Assembly: GCA_947464135.1 (NCBI GenBank)
Contig: CANHVK010000002.1
Location: 40,136-104,135, forward strand
Direction of reading: 5' to 3'
DNA length: 64,000 nt
From: Flavobacteriia bacterium
GTDB taxonomy: Bacteria; Bacteroidota; Bacteroidia; Flavobacteriales_D; Crocinitomicaceae
Shown: piece by piece, positions 3,467 to 30,436 of the stretch
Numbering within the stretch: position 1 is the stretch's first letter
Layout: each line of letters opens with the position of its first letter
Translations under genes and position numbers: made by a program
Notes under the pieces: model-generated
What the model was told of the DNA's origin: nothing
Database searches by the model: none
What the model saw: only the letters and a program-made list of their open reading frames with translations

Positions 3467-4495
3467 ATGTCAAAAGAAGTTAACATAGAAAAATTAAAAG
3501 CACTTCAACTTACAATGGATAAGTTAGATAAAACTTTCGGAAAAGGAAGTGTTATGAAACTAGGAGATTCAGCTATTGAAGAAGTAGAAGTAATACCAAC
3601 CGGTTCTATCACATTAGATTTAGCATTAGGTGTTAACGGATTCCCTAAAGGACGAATTGTAGAAATCTATGGTCCAGAATCATCAGGTAAAACAACGTTA
3701 GCTATTCACGCGATTGCAGAATGTCAAAAAAATGGCGGAATTGCAGCAATCATTGATGCTGAACATGCTTTCGACCAATTTTATGCTAAAAAACTAGGGG
3801 TTGATATCGATAACTTATTAATTTCTCAACCAGATAATGGAGAGCAAGCATTAGAAATTGCGGATAATCTAATTCGTTCAGGTGCAATTGATTTAATCGT
3901 TATAGATTCAGTAGCAGCATTGACTCCAAAAGCTGAGATTGAAGGGGAAATGGGGGATTCTCAAATGGGTTTACAAGCACGTTTGATGTCTAAAGCACTG
4001 AGAAAATTAACAGGTTCTATCTCTAAAGCTAAATGTTCTTGTATTTTCATCAACCAATTAAGAGATAAAATTGGTGTAATGTTTGGAAATCCTGAAACTA
4101 CTACGGGTGGTAATGCATTAAAGTTTTATGCTTCAGTTAGAATAGATATCCGTAAAGCAACTCAATTGAAAGATGGAGAAGAAGTAATCGGAAACCGTGT
4201 AAAAGTAAAAGTGGTAAAAAACAAAGTTGCGCCTCCTTTCAGAAAAGCGGAATTTGATATTATGTATGGTGAAGGTATTTCTAAAGTTGGTGAAATTATC
4301 GATTTAGGAGTTGACTTAAATATCATCAAGAAAAGTGGTTCATGGTTCTCTTATGGTGAAACAAAATTAGGACAAGGTCGTGATGCGGTTAAAAACCTAA
4401 TTCAAGACAATCCAGAATTAATGGAAGAATTGGAAACTAAAATCAAAAGTGCATTGACAAAAGAAGATGCAAAAGAGATTTTAATGAGTGAATAA
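3467..4495 (+). CDS. recA: Recombinase A
   Basis: A 342-residue RecA, the ATP-dependent strand-exchange protein of homologous recombination and, in many bacteria, the co-protease that triggers self-cleavage of LexA-like proteins. Walker A GPESSGKT is at residues 69-76, and [16 protein letters not shown] and the L2 region around [15 protein letters not shown] are all present. Length and ends are normal. It is preceded by a -7 element and a perfect palindrome and followed by a strong terminator, so it is a single-gene unit. Its presence matters for the S24-containing protein at 22415-24586, whose self-cleavage could depend on it. Confidence 0.99.
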
Positions 4496-20447: not shown

Positions 20448-21457
20448 TCATTTTGGGTATAGTTTTTTAATATCTTCCTCGATTTCTTTAAGGCTTTGTT
20501 CAAATTCTATTTTTTTGGTTTTTTCTTTAAACTTTAAAAATTCTGTAGAAGATTTTTCTATAGCCATTTGGTGACTAATTTTACCAGCGTGAGTAAGTAT
20601 CTCTCTACCATTTAATTGTAAAAGAGCATCTAAACGCTCAATCCAATCTTTCATATACATAGGTTTATTTTGCTGTGCCATCGTTTCTGCAAAGGCAAGA
20701 TATTGTTCAACTAACAAACCAAGTAATTTCATTTCGTTTTCGTCTAAATAGTTTTTTGCTATTCCGACATCATTTTTTTGAATGTTGTTTGTTCCGTTTT
20801 TATCATATGACTGCATACCTAAAAGTGGTAATTCAGCATCAACTCTTCTGTAAATTAATTCGGCCACTGTTTGTTCACTAATTGCCCAAAGGAGTTTGTT
20901 TTGTACAATTTTAAAAAAGGTGATTGTTTTTCATCTTTAGGATCGTAGTCGATACTTGTTGTGTAAATGTCTTTAATTTTTTGATAAAAGAATTTTTCTG
21001 AAATGCGTATCTCTCGAATACGTTGTTGTAATTCGTTGAAATAATTCATTGAATTTCCCGTTTTAAAACGTTCGTCGTTTAACGCAAATCCTTTAATGAT
21101 ATATTCTTTTAAACGTTGAGTTGCCCAAATACGAAACTGGGTACCTTGCTTGGATTTTACACGGTAGCCAACAGAGATAATTACATCTAAATTGTAAAAT
21201 TCAATATCTCTTTCCACTTCACGATTTCCTTCAATACGAACTTGTCGGAAATTCCGACGAGTTGAAATTTGCTCCAATTCCTCCTCTTTGTAAATATTAG
21301 AAATATGCTCCGTAATAGTGCTTCTACCCTTTCCAAAGAGCGTAGCCATTTGATCTTGTGTAAGCCAAACCGTTTCGTTTTCTAAATGGACGTCTATTTT
21401 GATGTTACCTTCTTGATTTTGATAAATTAATAAATTTGATTCTTTATGAAAATCCAT
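20448..21457 (-). pseudogene. RhuM family gene, interrupted by a -1 frameshift
   Basis: The first frame (21457 to 20855) encodes the RhuM N-terminal part, including VWLTQDQMATLFGKGRSTI, FYNLDVIISVGYRVKS and FRIWATQRLKEYI. The second frame (from about 20912 to 20448) carries the C-terminal part starting AELIYRRVDAE. The frames join exactly if the ribosome slips back one base on T TTT TTA at 20918-20912, a canonical X XXY YYZ slippery heptamer in phase, giving FLKIVQNKLLWAISEQTVAELIY. Without the slip, translation ends after about 19 odd residues. Either one T was lost from the run, making a pseudogene, or the shift is programmed. RhuM proteins are widespread in accessory regions; their function is poorly known. 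Confidence 0.8.
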
Positions 21458-21639: not shown

Positions 21640-22343
21640 TTACAATATCAGCCCCTTATTACGCTCAATTCTTTCTTTGGCTTCCACTAACAACTGATGT
21701 AATTTAGCTTCCATTCTTTTCCCAACTCCAAAACAAAATTTTCTAATTCTTGTAAGATTGTTTTTTCTAAATCATTCTCTAGATAGGTGTTTTTCAAATT
21801 CAAAAAATCTAATACATATGGATCTTTAAATGTATTTATCAAATCCGGGTGGGAGTTTGAAAATTGTATATTCGCTAATTCAGTTCTTTCATAAGCTTTT
21901 CGTTGAATTTGATTACGAAGTTCGCGTTTTCCCCATTTTTGTTCAATACAATTTTGCGCATAATATAGTTTTGCTTCTTTTGATTTTAAAGGAAATAACT
22001 CAATAAAATGAGACCAACTCAATTGTGCCGCCAGTGGTGGCAAAATGTTATAGTCTGAAAATTCTTGTGCAAAACGTATCATTCTTCGTACATTTTTCTC
22101 AGTGAAATTTCGTCCGTATTTCATTTCCAATTGTCGTGAGACGGAACTTAGTATTTGCTTTCCATACTCTGCACGTTCATTTTTTAGCTCTTCTTCTTTA
22201 ATACGTTTTCCTACTTTCCAAAAAAGTAACGTCAAGGTACTATTAGCAACTTTTGCAATTTTTTGTTTGCTATCTTCTATCAAGGAAGAAAGTTCTAATA
22301 CAAGATTGGATGTATTAAAAATGGTTTTTTCTGAATCTAACAT
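21640..22343 (-). pseudogene. DUF1016 / YhcG-like PDDEXK nuclease gene with internal deletion
   Basis: The open part (22343 to 21687, 218 residues) is the DUF1016 N-terminal domain: a long helical region with LFWKVGKRI, GKQILSSVSRQLEMKYG, RMIRFAQEF and LSWSHFIELF. It then enters the nuclease domain and stops early after ENFVLELGKEW. In another frame, from about 21712 to the TAA at 21642-21640, the true family C-terminus follows (EAKLHQLLVEAKERIERNK, then GLIL). So roughly 110-130 codons, including the PDDEXK active site, have been lost together with the frame. The product cannot be an active nuclease. Intact members are found in defence islands. Confidence 0.8.
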
Positions 22344-22414: not shown

Positions 22415-24586
22415 TCAATAAAGAACTTTTATAAAAGTACCAATCACTTTCAAGCTAATTGTTTCATCATCGGTCAAAGTTATTGGTTCAAAATCCAATG
22501 TAGATTTTGGTAATAGTTTAATTTCTAGATGAGACCAAGAATCTTCAGAAATGATTTTTTTACTTGAATATTCTTTAATAGTATAATTTCCACCCATTTC
22601 AATATCAGTATAATCTAACATTTCAACTAGCGTAATCAATCCGTTTCTACTACCTCCATTATATTTTTCAAAAAGACAAATTGAATTATTTGGTATTATT
22701 TTATTCATTGATTCCCCAACAACCCTACAAGCAAAATAATTTTCATTTTTATAGGACTCTCCTTCTTCCAATTCTAAATATTGAATTTGAGTAGATTGTT
22801 GATATTCAGAAAAGCTTCCTGCTGAAATTTTTAAATCATAAAATGGAATTGTAAACTCGTTTGGATCATTTAATATTTTTGGGGTATTAATAATTTCTAA
22901 TGGTTGATTTTTTGGCATAAACTTATGAAAATAAGCTCTTAAATTCGGATTACATACATAAAAAAAAGTGCCTTTTATTCCTCTTAAAGATATTGTTCTA
23001 TAAATATTTAATATATAATTCTTTAAAATTAATTCATCGGTTACTGTATTCTTACCTGCTTTATCTTTATATCTTTCTTTATAAATTACGAATGAATTAG
23101 TGTTAAAATCATAATCAAGTTCTGGTCCAATTATTACACCTGTATAATTCAAATCGTATCCTTGAGTTGTGTGTATGCATCCAACTTCATTGATAGAGTT
23201 TGGAGTATTTACCCAATCAACAGCAACACTATTCCACTTTAGTTTTGTTTCATCTATAATAATGTCAAATGCTTTTTCATCTTTATTAGTTAACCATTCC
23301 CATGCATAACCTGCTACTAATCGAGATAAACCATCTATGGATTCCTTTTTATGAATTTCATCAACCATTTGTTGAATATCATCGAATATAAAACATTCAT
23401 AATCTATATTTTGAATTGGATTCGGTGTAGTGTCGTCTGAAAATAATTCACCAATAAAACTTACATATTCATTACCTCCTCTACATCTAAATTGTGTTTT
23501 TAAGGTTTCTTTTCGAGTAAATGGTTGATTTTCTAATTCAATAAACTTTTCTCTTAATGTATCTGATGGTTTAATCGACTGAAATTGGTCATAAAACAAC
23601 AATGTTTTTTTAGATTGGATAAGCAACCAATCAAGTTCTGAAGCATTTAATTTATCCAAACCAAATAAATTACATATATCATCAAATGGCTTAAAGTAAG
23701 GTCCAAGGTTCACTCTTCTCCTTAATCTATGTCCCTCATCAACAATTACTAAATCAAATTTTTGTTTTGCCAAATCTGATGGTCCAATTACCATTTTTGG
23801 TGATAGTCCTTGAATATTTTTAAAAACTTTAGAAATCGTTTTACGAAACGAAGCCATAGGTATTACTAAAGCCATTTGTAAATCGCCATACTTTTGTTTT
23901 ACCAAATTCAATAATTCAAACAATTCTTCAGCTTCTTCTTCAAAGTCAGAAAAGTTAAATGTTTCAATATCTGTTTTTAAAAGCTTAAACAAAAAAATGG
24001 CAAGAATTGATTTACCTGTTCCTGCTCCACCCTGAATAAGTGATACTTTAGCTGAATCATCAAGTAAACAATTAAGTATCAATTTTAAACTTTTTACTTG
24101 TTCTTTTGATAACGATTTATATGGTGAATACTTAAATAAATCAGAATTGTTTATGTGATCTAGAGAATGTCTAGCAATCCCCATAGACCTCAATTCATCC
24201 CAAATATTTTTAAAAAGTTCCCAATAAAGTTCCTTTTGTTGGTAATACTTATGATTAGCAATTCCTAAATTTCCATTTTGCAATTTATACTGACCATCTG
24301 CAGCTATATATCTAATAAGATTTGACTCTAAATCTAACGTTGCTGACTTATTAAAAAAATCACTTACTATTAGATTTACAGTAGAAAGTTTACTTTTTCG
24401 CTCTGTTTTCGAATGAGTTTTCATTCTGTTCAAAACATCCGTAGTCTCTCCAACATAGGCATCTTTTGATGTATTATCATTCAAAAAATAAACCAAAGGC
24501 CAAGTAAGATAATCTCGATGATTATCAAGAATATTTTTCTCTAATTCATTATTAAAAGCGTAATGAGATATCGAAAAATTTTTCAT
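22415..24586 (-). CDS. GIY-YIG nuclease - Schlafen-group-3/DUF2075 helicase - S24 peptidase fusion
   Basis: A 723-residue multidomain protein. Residues 28-110 form a GIY-YIG nuclease (VYF at 32-34, YVG at 44-46, Arg 54, Glu 87, Asn near 104). Residues 155-560 are a superfamily 1 helicase of the DUF2075 family: Walker A GGAGTGKS 186-193, Walker B VIVDEGH 280-286, QFRCRGG 365-371, TTQGYDLNYTGV 473-484. Residues 580-723 are a LexA-like S24 module with GESM (Ser 626), Lys 671 in YTIKEYS, and an Ala589-Gly590 pair 37 residues before the Ser, where LexA, UmuD and lambda CI are cut. All catalytic parts look intact. It is the last gene of a three-gene unit; its ATG directly follows the pyrophosphohydrolase stop. 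Function is inferred: a nuclease-helicase effector controlled by self-cleavage. Confidence 0.82.
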   Translation of the reverse strand: MKNFSISHYAFNNELEKNILDNHRDYLTWPLVYFLNDNTSKDAYVGETTDVLNRMKTHSKTERKSKLSTVNLIVSDFFNKSATLDLESNLIRYIAADGQYKLQNGNLGIANHKYYQQKELYWELFKNIWDELRSMGIARHSLDHINNSDLFKYSPYKSLSKEQVKSLKLILNCLLDDSAKVSLIQGGAGTGKSILAIFLFKLLKTDIETFNFSDFEEEAEELFELLNLVKQKYGDLQMALVIPMASFRKTISKVFKNIQGLSPKMVIGPSDLAKQKFDLVIVDEGHRLRRRVNLGPYFKPFDDICNLFGLDKLNASELDWLLIQSKKTLLFYDQFQSIKPSDTLREKFIELENQPFTRKETLKTQFRCRGGNEYVSFIGELFSDDTTPNPIQNIDYECFIFDDIQQMVDEIHKKESIDGLSRLVAGYAWEWLTNKDEKAFDIIIDETKLKWNSVAVDWVNTPNSINEVGCIHTTQGYDLNYTGVIIGPELDYDFNTNSFVIYKERYKDKAGKNTVTDELILKNYILNIYRTISLRGIKGTFFYVCNPNLRAYFHKFMPKNQPLEIINTPKILNDPNEFTIPFYDLKISAGSFSEYQQSTQIQYLELEEGESYKNENYFACRVVGESMNKIIPNNSICLFEKYNGGSRNGLITLVEMLDYTDIEMGGNYTIKEYSSKKIISEDSWSHLEIKLLPKSTLDFEPITLTDDETISLKVIGTFIKVLY

Positions 24587-24916
24587 TTACAATTGATTAT
24601 ATTTATCAGACTTCCCTTTTGATTTTTCTACCGGGTATTTTTCTGCGTTTTTTTTGATCTTTTCTAAAACGATATTTTCTATATCTAAATCATATTTTTC
24701 AGCAATTAAAAATGCATATGCAAATACATCCGCTAATTCTTCCTTTACCTTCTCTAAATCTGCATCTTCCGGTTTTTTCCAAAGAAATAATTCCAACAAC
24801 TCATTTGCTTCAATACTTAATGCTATTGATAAATCTTTTGGATTATGAAATTGTTCCCAATCTCTTTCGTTTCTAAATGCAATTAATTCATCCGTTATTT
24901 TTTTAAACCCGCTCAT
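24587..24916 (-). CDS. MazG-like nucleotide pyrophosphohydrolase
   Basis: A 109-residue all-alpha NTP pyrophosphatase. The Mg-binding motif ExxE...ExxD is complete: E36ANE39 and E60LAD63, within SIEANELLELF and EELADVFAYA. Small MazG-like enzymes (RS21-C6/dCTPase type) convert (d)NTPs or modified nucleotides to monophosphates. Its ATG overlaps the TGA of the upstream TPR-protease gene (ATGA), and the helicase gene starts immediately after its stop. The tight fit argues that it works with both neighbours, for instance by lowering nucleotide pools during infection; that role is inference. Confidence 0.88.
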   Translation of the reverse strand: MSGFKKITDELIAFRNERDWEQFHNPKDLSIALSIEANELLELFLWKKPEDADLEKVKEELADVFAYAFLIAEKYDLDIENIVLEKIKKNAEKYPVEKSKGKSDKYNQL

Positions 24917-26886
24917 TTATTATTAGATAGTGACAAAGCAATTTTATACTCTTCATCAAATGGTAATTGTAATTCAGATAACATTTCTGGTAATGCAATA
25001 GCCCAACTTACATAGTAATATGCTAAAATATGATAGCCAGAAAATGTTTTGTTTTTAATTTTTGAAATTCGATAATTATTTTTTTCAGGAGAAAAACCTT
25101 GAGTACCTTGCATTGCAATTTCAAGAGCAATCTCTTTAACCTCATTTTTTGACATTGAATTAAAGTACTCAAGAGCATCGACCATAAACATAGCTACAGC
25201 CATATTTACACCTATTGCTTCTTGATTTTTTAAAAAAGCCTCAATTTCTTTTTCTCTCTCAGGGTCAGGAGTGTTTATCCCATAAGGGTCATTCTCAATA
25301 GATTCTAAAATTGAATTTAAATCAGAATTTTTTAAATTATAACTTGATTCAGAGACTAATTCAAAATATTCGCCCAGTTTCAAGTCTTCAGACCAATTCT
25401 TGATTAATTCATATTCTTCGCCTGGTTGTTTATCTTCACTATATTCTAAATACTCATTATACAACTCATTAGCTTGATTTAATTCACTTTTTGTTGCTTT
25501 ATAAAAACTGATAAAATCTATCCCAAATAAGTCTTTAAATTGCAAAGCACCAATTATATTGTAAATCTTACTTTTAGATAAAATTGATTTTGGTGAAAGC
25601 TCAATTATTTTATCGTTGGTGACTGCTTGTATTCCTTCTTCGATTAAATTCAATAAGGAAATGAATTGAAAAGGTTTTAATTCATTAAAACTTTTGAATA
25701 AAAAATCTTCTATGAATAAATCAATCGGTGCATTGAAAATTTGTCTATTTATACCGTGAAATAACTCAATGGTATATTTTGTAATACTCTCATCGGGAAT
25801 GCCTAATTTCTCTAATTTTTGTAAATCACTTTTGATACTTTTCAAAAATGTATTTTGATGACTCTGATTGGAAATAAAAAGCATATTAGCATCTATTTGT
25901 CTTGCTTTAGTAGCAAAATCTAAATGCACTAATTCATGCATTATTAAATGTTCTACCGCTTTATAACTTGGCTTATATTTTACTAAATGCTTTTCCCGAT
26001 TATAATTTTCAGCAAATTCAAATTTTGCAGCAGTCTGAATTTCATCATCTTTAATTATTTCGATTAATTTATCACACTCAAATTCTAATTTACTTTTGTA
26101 ATTATTAATCAAATTAGAAACATCTGTTGTATCCATGATTTTTTTAGCAACATCAGTTGTGTGATTGAACGCATTACTAAAAAATCCATCTCTAACATTA
26201 CATAACTTTAAAGTGTTTAAACCAAATTCAAAAGATGCAACTAAATCACCTTCCATTTCATAAGTTAGACTTAATGCATAATGCGTATTAGGGTATTTAT
26301 TATCTATTTTTAGTGCTTGATTGAAGTACAACTTAGCTTCTTCAGTTTTCCCTTGTTGCATAAGATTTGCACCAATATTATTTATTGTAATATTGTCGTT
26401 TGGATTAACTGCTAATGCTTGATCATAATATTTCATTGCAGTTGGAATATCTGACTTGAATTTTGAAAAGATATTTCCCATCATTAGCAGTGCCCATCCA
26501 TTTTTTGAATCCCATCTTAGCGAATCAATCAAAGAATTTATAGCTTCATCTTGATTACCTTCTTCAGAATATATTTGTCCCATTATTCTATGGTATTCAG
26601 AATTTGTGGGATTAGCTTTAATTAATGAACTTAGTATAGGTTTTGCTTCTTGGAAGTTACCTTTTTCACATAAAGCTACAGTTTTTCTAAATTCAACTTC
26701 TTGATTAATAATTGAATTAACATCAATTTCAATTGTTACCCAATTATCTTTAATCGTTACGTTAGGTGTAAATGGGCCAGATTTATAATACTCTTTTAAA
26801 GTATTAATTATCAAATCATTACCCCCCCCTGTTAATTCAGGAAAAATTGTAAATAAAAACTCGTCTATTTTATGCGAAATAATCAT
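24913..26886 (-). CDS. TPR protein with HELVH zinc-metallopeptidase motif
   Basis: A 657-residue cytosolic protein, first gene of the three-gene unit. Tetratricopeptide repeats run from about residue 62 to 230 (for example AIKANPTN-like junctions at 89-95, EAINSLIDSLRWDSKNGWALLMMG, AMKYYDQALAVNPND). A helical middle region contains EHLIMHELVHLDFATKARQ with H317, E318 and H321 as a zincin motif. The third zinc ligand is not obvious. The last 330 residues are helical and unrecognised. Near the start, codons 20-22 are encoded by a run of eight G (26822-26829), which could slip and switch the whole operon. It may be sensor and protease together; I know of no named family that fits the full length. 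Confidence 0.7.
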   Translation of the reverse strand: MIISHKIDEFLFTIFPELTGGGNDLIINTLKEYYKSGPFTPNVTIKDNWVTIEIDVNSIINQEVEFRKTVALCEKGNFQEAKPILSSLIKANPTNSEYHRIMGQIYSEEGNQDEAINSLIDSLRWDSKNGWALLMMGNIFSKFKSDIPTAMKYYDQALAVNPNDNITINNIGANLMQQGKTEEAKLYFNQALKIDNKYPNTHYALSLTYEMEGDLVASFEFGLNTLKLCNVRDGFFSNAFNHTTDVAKKIMDTTDVSNLINNYKSKLEFECDKLIEIIKDDEIQTAAKFEFAENYNREKHLVKYKPSYKAVEHLIMHELVHLDFATKARQIDANMLFISNQSHQNTFLKSIKSDLQKLEKLGIPDESITKYTIELFHGINRQIFNAPIDLFIEDFLFKSFNELKPFQFISLLNLIEEGIQAVTNDKIIELSPKSILSKSKIYNIIGALQFKDLFGIDFISFYKATKSELNQANELYNEYLEYSEDKQPGEEYELIKNWSEDLKLGEYFELVSESSYNLKNSDLNSILESIENDPYGINTPDPEREKEIEAFLKNQEAIGVNMAVAMFMVDALEYFNSMSKNEVKEIALEIAMQGTQGFSPEKNNYRISKIKNKTFSGYHILAYYYVSWAIALPEMLSELQLPFDEEYKIALSLSNNK

Positions 26887-27135: not shown

Positions 27136-28149
27136 TTAAAATTTTTGATTAAAAGTATCTTGGATATTTTGCACTATCTCTATCACTTCAGAAAAAGTAG
27201 GTGCCACTCCAGACATCATTTCTCTCGCCATTTCTTCATAGTCACTTTTTAATTTTAATAATATAGATTCCTCAGGTATAATTGCAATTTGTCCAACGCA
27301 AAGTGTATTATAATCAAAATGTCTAAGTCGAGAATAGGATTTCCGATGTTCAATGATTTCTTTAATAAATGGAATGTCAACGAGTGTGTTTGAATATCCT
27401 TTATAAAGGCGATACAAGTCGTAATAATGTCGAGACATTCGCTTTGTTCTCATTTTGCTCTCATCCTCTCGGTTGTATTCTTCATGAAGTAATAGAATTT
27501 TTTCAATAAACGTTCTATTAGGATGGATGGTAGTAACTAGAAAAGTCTCTTCCTCATAAATAGCATTGGGAAAATAGGAGTTTAAAAGTGTTTGCATTTC
27601 CCTACTTTCATTCGGATCTTTCTGTGAACGTACACTAAATTCTATTTTTACCCTATCTGGTAAATAGGGATTAGGATCAAATAAAGATTTGTAATTCACG
27701 TATATTGTTTGAGGATCTGTGTCTGGCATATCTTTTCGTACTGCTTCTACTTCTATCGAAAAAAACAGTTTTGGAATTTGAAATTTTTCAAACTGATTTA
27801 GCATCTCTTTAGCAATTTCATTGCTCGTAAACAAACAACCTTCTCGTCGCAATTGCTCTACAAAAGTTTTTGACGGCTTATCTTTATAGGATATCCCAAA
27901 AGCCTCGGAATTTAAAGCTACATCTATGTCTTCAGAAAATCGGTCAATAATACCCCAACCCTTACTCAAAGAAGTTCCTCCTTTAAATGCAAAATATGAT
28001 GCATATTTAGAAGTAAACAACATTTTTAATACAAGCGTTACCCACCAATCTTTCTCTATTGCTTTTGGGGTTATTCCTGATTGCAATGAAGCTTGATTCA
28101 ATGAGATTCTACGCGCATTATCATCCAGTTTTTGAATCCATCCAATCAT
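27136..28149 (-). CDS. AbiEii/AbiGii-family nucleotidyltransferase toxin
   Basis: A 337-residue nucleotidyltransferase. The polymerase-beta-like core has FKGGTSLSK (55-63) and the acidic EDIDVAL (73-79), followed by RVKIEFS and FIEKILLLHEEY with RHYYDLYRL, which match motifs III and IV of the AbiEii family. AbiEii toxins are the type IV partners of AbiEi and stop growth by modifying RNA with nucleotides, giving phage abortive infection in known cases. Its ATG overlaps the stop of the antitoxin gene (ATGA). It is complete and likely active. Confidence 0.88.
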   Translation of the reverse strand: MIGWIQKLDDNARRISLNQASLQSGITPKAIEKDWWVTLVLKMLFTSKYASYFAFKGGTSLSKGWGIIDRFSEDIDVALNSEAFGISYKDKPSKTFVEQLRREGCLFTSNEIAKEMLNQFEKFQIPKLFFSIEVEAVRKDMPDTDPQTIYVNYKSLFDPNPYLPDRVKIEFSVRSQKDPNESREMQTLLNSYFPNAIYEEETFLVTTIHPNRTFIEKILLLHEEYNREDESKMRTKRMSRHYYDLYRLYKGYSNTLVDIPFIKEIIEHRKSYSRLRHFDYNTLCVGQIAIIPEESILLKLKSDYEEMAREMMSGVAPTFSEVIEIVQNIQDTFNQKF

Positions 28150-28757
28150 ACTCTTTGTTTTAAAAAGTTCTTAATGACAAAATCACTTATTCTTGCAGGT
28201 GCTAATTTCAAATCATATTTCAGCTTTTTAGGATCTTCCTTTTTAAGTAAACTGATAATTTTTTCCATCTCAGATTCACTAAGCTGTGATAAATCCAATT
28301 CCTCTAATCCCACAAATAACAAACTTGATATTGAACCTATCATTGCTAATTTTTTGGTTGTAGTAGGCTGGAATACTAGTGCATTTTTTCCAATGACGAT
28401 ATTTTTCTTAGTTCCATTCGTTAAAAAAACCATTTTCATTGGAATTTGCGTTGAGAGTCCAATTTTGTTTAACGCAAACAGACCAGTAGGCATAATTTTA
28501 ACGTGTTCTTTTTTCGCTAATAACACAGCTATTTCTTCTATCGATGGAAGTACATCGCCAAATACCTTATCTTTAATAGGAATCACATAAATACCTTGTC
28601 CCATACGAACTAAGACTTTCTGCTCAACTAATCGCGAAAGTGCTTTCCTAATGGCTGTTGAAGTACCTAAGTCTTTAAAGTCGGAAGGTAAAATTAATTT
28701 ACCTGGTTTCGATCGCTTAACCTTAGATTCAATTTGGTTGTAAATTGACGCTTCCAT
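28146..28757 (-). CDS. AbiEi-type antitoxin / transcriptional repressor (DUF6088-like)
   Basis: A 203-residue protein, partner of the downstream toxin. Residues 20-65 form a winged helix (LILPSDFKDLGTSTAIRKAL, then LVRMGQGIYVIP), and the rest is the AbiEi C-terminal domain. Known AbiEi proteins both neutralise the toxin and repress the operon through inverted repeats at the promoter. I use the ATG at 28757; the TTG at 28772 would lie in the inverted repeat. The 4-base overlap with the toxin gene is typical for such pairs. Confidence 0.83.
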   Translation of the reverse strand: MEASIYNQIESKVKRSKPGKLILPSDFKDLGTSTAIRKALSRLVEQKVLVRMGQGIYVIPIKDKVFGDVLPSIEEIAVLLAKKEHVKIMPTGLFALNKIGLSTQIPMKMVFLTNGTKKNIVIGKNALVFQPTTTKKLAMIGSISSLLFVGLEELDLSQLSESEMEKIISLLKKEDPKKLKYDLKLAPARISDFVIKNFLKQRV

Positions 28758-28771
28758 ATCACGAATATACA

Positions 28772-28812
28772 AATAATTGTGACAAAAAAATATTCATTAT
28801 GTCACAATTATT
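28772..28812. promoter_or_regulatory. Long inverted repeat upstream of the AbiE pair, likely AbiEi operator
   Basis: AATAATTGTGACA (28772-28784) and TGTCACAATTATT (28800-28812) are a perfect 13-bp inverted repeat with a 15-base AT-rich centre. It ends 15 bases before the antitoxin ATG, where the promoter should be. AbiEi binding to paired inverted repeats is known from other abiE operons. Confidence 0.7.
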
Positions 28813-28883: not shown

Positions 28884-30416
28884 TTACCTTCCAAAAACAT
28901 CTTTGTATATCTCTTCAATCTGAATAATTTCCGTATCAGTTAATACTTGAAACTCTTTTGCTTTCGCGCGATTAGAAAACTGACCATTATTTTGTTCTAA
29001 AAAATTGACTAACAACGAAATCATTCGATCAGGCATTTCTACTACTTGTTCAAGCTGTTTTTTAAACGTATCAAACGCTTGTAAATAATTGATTTCTTCT
29101 GGAATGACACGATCTAATGTATCTTGCACACAATCATATAAAAACTCAGCTTGTTTGGTAGCATCAAAATAACGATAATAGTCAATCGTTTCATTGATAA
29201 CCTCCACATTGTGATCTTCTGTTTCTGTCCAATCAATAAAATCTAAAATAGAGTGAGAATACGTTTCCAACACTTTTCTATAATCATCTATATGATCTAA
29301 AATAGAAGCTGAAATCGGAAAGATGATGCCCTGTTGTGAGAATTTTTGTTTCGCAAGAATATGATGAATCAGGTAACGGTGTAATCGACCATTTCCATCT
29401 TCAAATGGGTGAATAAAAACAAAACCAAAGGCAATCACAGCCGCCGAAAGAACTGCATCATAGTTGTTTTCTAATAAATTATTGGTTGTAAGTAATCCAT
29501 TCATTAACAAATCAATGTCTTGCCATTTAGCAGAAATATGTTCTGGCAAAGGCATTCCCGTTTCTCGATCATGTTCACCAACAAAGCCTCCCTTTTTTCG
29601 AAATCCGAAGGTTACAAAACGGTTTCCTTCTAAAATGATTTGTTGCAGTCGTAGCAATTCTTCTTTATTTAAACTATTTGCACCTGCCTGACCAATCGCT
29701 TTTCCCCATCTAACAGCACGATTCGTCGGTGGCGTTTCTCCCTCGATCGTGAAAGATGCTTTCGAATCTTTTAATAATAAAAAAGCAGAAGCACGTTGCA
29801 AAACACTCTTTAACACGGAATTCAAATACGTACTATTTACCGCTGATAAATTAGATTGAATGTAATTTTCTAACTTTTCCGTTTTAAAAATTAATGGACA
29901 AAAGTCAACCGTCCCAGGTAAATTATTTATGATACGATGACGAGGAGAGCTTACCCCTTTTATAGCATATTGTATCTTTTCATCGATTAAAGGAACAGCA
30001 TCTTTGATTGTTAAATCAGGAAGATTTAATTTTTTGTTCATTAACCATTCATACAAAAACCATATTTTTCGAGAATACTGTCCGGTTGGTTCTATTTGCA
30101 ATAACTTACAAATTTCTTCTTCAGAAATTTTTAGAAACAGAGATTTAAAAAATAATAAATTAACTCCTTCGTATTTTAAAGCAAATACAAGATGTTTATA
30201 CAAAGTATCCTCAAAAATATTTCTAGATGAAAAAACCCTCCAATCTGCATTTGCATAACTTCTTCGTTTATGACTTATTATTGAAGTTTGAGTAGGATGA
30301 GGAATTGTCAGTTTTAAACCGTGTATTAATGCACTATAACCTACAAGAATACCTTCTTCGGGTGCTTTTTTCCCCTGAAAAACAGTAATTTTTAAAAAAT
30401 AACCTTGACTTTCCAT
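28884..30416 (-). CDS. Large Fic family protein (class II)
   Basis: A 510-residue protein with the Fic core in the middle. The inhibitory motif S221-FTI-E225-G226 precedes it and the catalytic HPFEDGNGRLHR is at about 336-347. The C-terminal 130 residues look helical and end in a probable winged helix (NRAKAKEFQVLTDTEI). Fic proteins usually AMPylate targets; all motif residues are present. The ATG at 30416 is used; the TTG at 30428 adds only MLRC. Three iterated repeats lie just upstream. The gene is the last of the accessory island before mnmE. Confidence 0.87.
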   Translation of the reverse strand: MESQGYFLKITVFQGKKAPEEGILVGYSALIHGLKLTIPHPTQTSIISHKRRSYANADWRVFSSRNIFEDTLYKHLVFALKYEGVNLLFFKSLFLKISEEEICKLLQIEPTGQYSRKIWFLYEWLMNKKLNLPDLTIKDAVPLIDEKIQYAIKGVSSPRHRIINNLPGTVDFCPLIFKTEKLENYIQSNLSAVNSTYLNSVLKSVLQRASAFLLLKDSKASFTIEGETPPTNRAVRWGKAIGQAGANSLNKEELLRLQQIILEGNRFVTFGFRKKGGFVGEHDRETGMPLPEHISAKWQDIDLLMNGLLTTNNLLENNYDAVLSAAVIAFGFVFIHPFEDGNGRLHRYLIHHILAKQKFSQQGIIFPISASILDHIDDYRKVLETYSHSILDFIDWTETEDHNVEVINETIDYYRYFDATKQAEFLYDCVQDTLDRVIPEEINYLQAFDTFKKQLEQVVEMPDRMISLLVNFLEQNNGQFSNRAKAKEFQVLTDTEIIQIEEIYKDVFGR

Positions 30417-30436
30417 ACACCTCAACAAGAATTAAT

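Follow-up and report, generated by a model that had tools for sequence, protein, structure and literature searches.

SauUSI, a type IV restriction enzyme, recognises methylated cytosine and is active without an S24 domain (PMC7913695). Type I restriction is shut off after DNA damage through ClpXP, which acts on HsdR (PMC4231737), and LexA fragments are likewise destroyed by ClpXP after damage, according to Neher (2003) as cited in PMC4231737. Plasmid-induced restriction alleviation of EcoKI in Escherichia coli does not need LexA cleavage (PMC11109961). In the open-access literature we found no account of S24 domains on restriction nuclease-helicases, nor of the GIY-YIG–SLFN–S24 architecture described below; papers beyond it may exist.

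The protein considered here is encoded in a 64,000-nucleotide stretch of Bacteroidota DNA, referred to as the window, and its features are as follows.

22415–24586, minus strand: GIY-YIG / SLFN group 3 helicase / S24 protein, 723 aa, ATG start (open reading frame and Pfam)
24314–24496, minus strand: GIY-YIG nuclease domain, residues 31–91 (Pfam PF01541, 3.2e-5)
22952–24049, minus strand: SLFN group 3 (SLFN-g3) helicase, formerly DUF2075, residues 180–545 (Pfam PF09848, 1.5e-55)
22418–22846, minus strand: LexA-type S24 module, residues 581–723 (Pfam PF00717, AF2 and Foldseek)
22817–22822, minus strand: predicted scissile bond, Ala589-Gly590 (Ala in 48/48 and Gly in 47/48 related modules)
22709–22711, minus strand: predicted nucleophile, Ser626 (48/48 related modules)
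22574–22576, minus strand: predicted general base, Lys671 (48/48 related modules)

The initial annotation had read three modules in the order GIY-YIG, DUF2075 helicase and S24, and Pfam bears this out: all three matches exceed the curated cut-offs, with Peptidase_S24 covering residues 581–655 (2.2e-6). The residues and motifs that it had singled out (Y44-V45-G46, R54, E87, GGAGTGKS at 186–193, VIVDEGH at 280–286, A589-G590, S626 and K671) are all where it had put them, and its spacings of 37 residues from Ala589 to Ser626 and 45 from Ser626 to Lys671 are correct. Its term “Schlafen-type” is apt for the helicase, which belongs to SLFN group 3, and does not extend to the rest of the protein, in which Pfam shows no Schlafen nuclease core. 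The catalytic Tyr/Tyr/Arg/Glu/Asn set of GIY-YIG nucleases is present as Y33, Y44, R54, E87 and N104, and these residues, together with G46 and H58, are invariant across the 33 GIY-bearing proteins that cover them; the helicase motif residues show no variation in any relative covering them. Pfam finds neither the N-terminal DNA-binding HTH of LexA nor the PLD, SF2 and DUF3427 target reader parts of SauUSI in the 723 aa protein. A full-length AF2 model, built from five sequences, has a pLDDT of 45. As judged from its sequence, the protein belongs both to the GIY-YIG and to the SLFN-g3 helicase family, has an S24 domain of the self-cleaving type, and is neither a LexA repressor, a Schlafen nuclease nor a SauUSI enzyme. 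Its predicted activities are those of a restriction-type nuclease-helicase with a C-terminal LexA-type self-cleaving module.

Relatives were gathered from Bacteroidota genomes, public genome contigs, plasmids and viral contigs, using the window protein or its S24 domain as query, which biases the share of S24-bearing members upward. In the resulting subfamily of 48 S24 modules, Ala589, Ser626 and Lys671 are invariant and Gly590 is kept in 47, the single exception being L058, a fusion to type III Res that has Ala-Thr at the site. Every one of the 48 modules has a Ser-Lys spacing of 45 and an Ala-Ser spacing of 35 to 38, and none stops more than 9 residues short of the C-terminus. Identity to the window module ranges from 33 to 68% among related modules on five nuclease-helicase chassis, and the mean modal frequency across all columns of the 48 modules is 0.556. 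Set against that mean, the near-invariance of the site residues indicates that the putative self-cleavage site is under selection and not a product of chance. About nine extra residues, including a nearly invariant Asp661, precede the catalytic Lys in this subfamily and are absent from LexA and UmuD.

AF2 modelled residues 566–723 with a pLDDT of 87.6. The best Foldseek matches of this model are the cleavable form of LexA (1jhe; E = 9.2e-6, TM to target 0.74), RecA-bound LexA (8gms and 8s7g) and a hyper-cleavable CI (2ho0), with UmuD a weaker match. Sequence searches of the PDB returned no match for the full protein and no significant match to any LexA for the S24 profile, so the relationship to LexA is drawn from Pfam and from the fold comparison. 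The initial annotation had proposed an intact LexA-type self-cleavage apparatus. Both the retention of Ala, Ser and Lys in 48/48 modules and of Gly in 47/48, and the resemblance of the predicted fold to LexA and CI, support that proposal and extend it to a conserved feature of the subfamily.

The same module is found on other nuclease-helicases. Across 396 Bacteroidota genomes, the S24 profile gave matches at E < 1e-50 in 18, the next matches being ordinary S24 proteins at 1e-5, and every such match with enough contig is a nuclease-helicase fusion. The chassis include GIY-YIG–SLFN (27 intact proteins, plus fragments), the SauUSI-like PLD–SF2–DUF3427 arrangement (12), type I HsdR (L047, L059 and L179), type III Res (L058, beside a Mod-like methylase) and a PD-(D/E)XK-like–SLFN protein on a Halomonas plasmid (L052), whose nuclease is assigned as PD-(D/E)XK from its motif and whose frame is interrupted ahead of the S24 part. 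The SauUSI-like L050 (1127 aa) matches SauUSI (7clg) over residues 3–948 with E = 5e-235, and also matches the PADLOC type IV restriction model. In the 396 Bacteroidota genomes, 5 of the 8 SauUSI-like proteins of clear length carry the S24 tail. On a tree of the S24 modules the chassis types cluster (0/500 shuffles were as low). A search of viral contigs with the full window protein returned no relatives.

An apparent S24 swap between chassis in L173, by which a SauUSI-type S24 would derive from the GIY-YIG group, is unsupported, since the AU test does not reject a single SauUSI-type clade (p 0.31). At the loci L047 838–9570, L059 1–5444 and L179, the HsdR–S24 genes lie beside Septu-like PtuA/PtuB genes encoding an AAA ATPase and an HNH protein, identified by PADLOC for L047 and by PtuA homologues in L059 and L179; such a merger of type I and Septu-like systems is unusual. 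The type III-like Mod/Res pair (L058 574–5435) comes from a viral-contig record that also contains a serine recombinase. In L044 (6112–8514) a Pro/Thr-rich linker of roughly 100 residues joins helicase and S24. The genes in L038, L167, L170 and L171 are broken by stops or frameshifts, reflecting decay or assembly error.

One relative carries a different tail. L169 (705–3122) has the GIY-YIG and SLFN-g3 parts and a MazG gene upstream, but does not end in the shared module. In its place stands a canonical S24 domain (Pfam 8e-24), with LexA and UmuD as the best solved relatives. Its Cys555-Gly556 pair sits 36 residues before Ser591, and the Ser-Lys spacing is 37. UmuD, too, is cut at Cys-Gly, and its residues (Cys24-Gly25, Ser60, Lys97) are spaced identically. 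As read from these sequences, a self-cleaving-type tail has been acquired at least twice on the GIY-YIG–SLFN chassis. That a second such domain was acquired independently in this position is the strongest indirect support for self-cleavage being the selected property.

The nuclease gene is the third of a tight minus-strand run, beginning right after the stop of the second; the two genes ahead of it are:

24913–26886, minus strand: TPR protein with an HExxH motif (Pfam TPR matches), overlapping the MazG gene by 4 bases
24587–24916, minus strand: MazG-like nucleotide pyrophosphohydrolase (Pfam MazG-like, 1.7e-17), abutting the nuclease start

In 31 of the 33 loci where the position is visible, MazG is the first gene upstream on the same strand, mostly overlapping or within 20 bases. 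The nearest solved relatives of the window MazG-like protein are dCTP pyrophosphatase 1 structures (PDB 6sqw, 6.4e-17), and its ExxE...ExxD metal-binding residues (E36, E39, E60 and D63) are invariant in nine MazG homologues. A Nudix gene occupies the corresponding position beside the SauUSI-like proteins, in 12/12 with the S24 tail and 3/3 without it (15/15); the closest solved relative of this partner is a putative CTP pyrophosphohydrolase (1.3e-39). A tie between the pyrophosphohydrolase and the S24 module is ruled out by those three S24-less SauUSI-like proteins and by an S24-less relative, L043, which retains MazG. Since S24-less relatives keep the partner, partner and module are separate accessories. 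The S24-less SauUSI-like proteins with Nudix directly upstream are L217, L218 and L219, and the L050 Nudix matches the PADLOC candidate PDC-S07.

Because SauUSI reads methylated cytosine and DCTPP1 and NudG hydrolyse 5-methyl-dCTP, the partners may act as modified-dCTP cleaners. By this analogy, an attractive possibility is that they remove modified dCTP from the pool and so spare the host’s own DNA from targeting; depletion of dCTP as a form of defence would be the alternative. The TPR gene joins the MazG–nuclease operon in a minority of loci (the window, L031, L032 and L043, with two fragments in L166). The motif MHELVHLD (HExxH) in the C-terminal half of its product is invariant in four homologues, and the protein is possibly a TPR-metallopeptidase that serves as an optional partner of the operon.

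The host assembly (Bacteroidota, 2.3 Mb, 84% complete) contains one copy of the nuclease gene. recA lies in the same window (3467–4495, plus strand), and just one further S24 protein was found in the genome, a UmuD-like protein of 150 residues encoded together with UmuC (a umuDC-like pair, L186 2099–3813). With recA and this pair, the host has the parts for a RecA-responsive self-cleavage, and RecA-stimulated cleavage is plausible here. No LexA DNA-binding domain was found in the 84%-complete genome; SOS wiring in a host without a recognisable LexA may be unusual. The locus has an anti-phage context, with an adjoining AbiE pair and candidate PADLOC genes, and the neighbourhood looks like a defence island. 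An AbiEi/AbiEii pair and a Fic-domain gene adjoin the operon at 27136–28772 and 28884–30428 (minus strand). On the other side are a RhuM-family gene (20448–21457, minus strand) in two overlapping open reading frames of 139 and 200 aa, probably frameshifted, and a DUF1016/YhcG gene (21687–22343, minus strand) of 218 aa that ends inside its PDDEXK domain and is probably truncated.

From these data we infer a mechanism in its several parts: cleavage, a RecA trigger, a direction, a ClpXP step, a role for MazG and an anti-phage function. RecA filaments formed on damaged DNA would induce the S24 module to fold its own Ala589-Gly590 strand into the Ser626/Lys671 site, and the cut would free the last 134 residues from the GIY-YIG–helicase part. 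Most likely this would serve as a safety switch that removes the nuclease while the chromosome undergoes repair. The new C-terminus of small residues (...Ile-Ser-Ala in the window protein, Ala-Ala in 44 of the 48 modules) would direct the product to destruction by ClpXP, as for the LexA fragment; alternatively, cleavage might switch the enzyme off by abolishing S24-mediated pairing. Either route would place “restriction alleviation” inside the enzyme itself. For the MazG-type partner, the probable substrates are dCTP-like or modified dCTP-like nucleotides; their hydrolysis would keep the target modification out of the cell’s own DNA or limit the nucleotides available to phage. We regard RecA-triggered self-cleavage as likely and, given cleavage, consider the off-direction the somewhat better supported of the two; the explanation as a whole, with ClpXP and MazG included, is put forward tentatively, as one that may well prove wrong in part.

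The direction is argued from the company that the module keeps. SauUSI is active without S24, so the module appears to be an add-on regulator that is dispensable for activity. Were HsdR kept dormant while HsdM is active, invading DNA would, we reason, become methylated. The off-direction is favoured because the chassis are active without S24, because ClpXP acting on HsdR offers a precedent and because a dormant HsdR accompanied by its methylase is implausible. By analogy with the HsdR, Res and SauUSI-like enzymes that share the module, damage-triggered shut-off is at least as likely as activation, and we favour it. The EcoKI result (PMC11109961) counts against this direction. So does the nature of the site, since Ala-Ala ahead of Gly is also the cleavage preference of LexA and need not be a degron. 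The predicted cleaved product reaches about 30 residues past the natural C-terminus of the S24-less L043, and should therefore stay an intact enzyme unless it is degraded, which allows an on-switch equally. Against the preferred explanation more generally stand the Ala-Thr of L058 and the failure to find a LexA DNA-binding domain in the 84%-complete genome.

The opposite direction, which was the view of the initial annotation, would have the S24 module inhibit the nuclease-helicase until RecA filaments, raised by phage attack or damage, provoke self-cleavage; the nuclease set free in this way would be active and destroy phage or host DNA in an abortive infection. The conserved cleavage apparatus suits this as well, as do the adjoining AbiE and other defence genes; the freed part resembles natural S24-less enzymes such as L043 and so should be active, and the widely varying linker, long and Pro/Thr-rich in L044, fits a module that need only be detached. 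We nevertheless think it less likely than the off-switch, since the HsdR and SauUSI chassis are active without the module, and an HsdR dormant until SOS would leave HsdM free to methylate incoming DNA. Many phages, moreover, do not induce SOS early. Still less probable, in our estimation, is self-cleavage independent of RecA, with the signal being the state of the helicase, a nucleotide handled by the MazG or Nudix partner, or a phage protein. In its favour are the extra stretch of about nine residues ahead of the catalytic Lys, with a nearly invariant Asp661, which is missing from LexA and UmuD, the ATP-driven helicase present in every chassis, and the want of a recognisable LexA in the genome. 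The ordinary LexA/UmuD-type module at the same place in L169 is, however, best explained by a shared RecA signal, and the UmuDC pair shows that S24 proteins of the RecA-responsive kind occur in this host.

Two further readings give the module another role. LexA-family C-terminal domains dimerise, and the module could serve only for dimerisation or docking, as the loss of the site Gly in L058 might suggest. Purifying selection on the scissile-bond flanks and both catalytic residues, seen in 47/48 modules and on five chassis, makes this very unlikely, and SauUSI, which has no S24, forms dimers by way of its nuclease domains (PMC7913695). The module might instead act as an intermolecular protease that cuts phage repressors, host UmuD or other proteins. 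UmuD and LexA do act in trans to a limited degree; a trans protease would have no need of the cis site that is kept here at canonical spacing, and we give this reading hardly any weight. RecA-triggered self-cleavage as an off-switch thus remains our preferred explanation.

If cleavage is confirmed, these restriction enzymes would themselves be protein-level sensors of the RecA damage signal, and SOS would be linked directly to restriction. If the off-direction is also true, it would show a way for some bacteria to escape self-restriction while repair is under way, by means of a built-in restriction alleviation; with the direction reversed, the protein would be a damage-armed defence nuclease. 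The recurrence of one switch among several unrelated restriction enzymes suggests that an antiviral nuclease can itself house the sensing of damage. We see an even chance that the LexA-type module works as a regulator of restriction-type nuclease-helicases at large and can be moved among them, being present on five chassis and replaced by an independently acquired UmuD-like domain in L169, and that RecA filaments act through it to switch restriction by cutting the enzyme, without a transcriptional step. The recurring dCTP/CTP pyrophosphatase-like neighbour raises a second idea, that of a nucleotide-pool cleaner paired with modification-dependent restriction.

The domain combination is in principle visible in Pfam, and no PADLOC model or named system fits the whole protein. 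With bacterial Schlafens and with PADLOC PDC-S14 and Nhi, the window protein shares the SLFN-g3 helicase fold, and its GIY-YIG and helicase parts give weak PADLOC matches; these are partial only, and unlike those systems it has no Schlafen nuclease core. Its S24 module resembles LexA, UmuD and lambda CI in fold, in the Ser-Lys dyad and in an Ala-Gly pair 35–38 residues upstream of the Ser. It differs from them in being C-terminal to a nuclease-helicase, without an HTH or a polymerase partner, and in belonging to a separate subfamily, in which Ser and Lys lie further apart (45) and a loop is added. The likeness to type I HsdR and type III Res lies in the three HsdR and one Res relatives that end in the window-type module, whereas the window gene has no adjoining methylase or specificity subunit. 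Where SauUSI (7clg) combines PLD, SF2 and a DUF3427/SRA-like reader, the window protein carries GIY-YIG and SLFN-g3, and no modified-base reader is recognisable in it. Among solved structures, DCTPP1 (RS21-C6) and CTP pyrophosphohydrolase-type Nudix enzymes stand nearest to the MazG and Nudix partners, whose substrates are predicted from them. With the SauUSI-like type IV enzymes the family has in common both an S24 tail on some of its members and a nucleotide pyrophosphohydrolase encoded immediately upstream.
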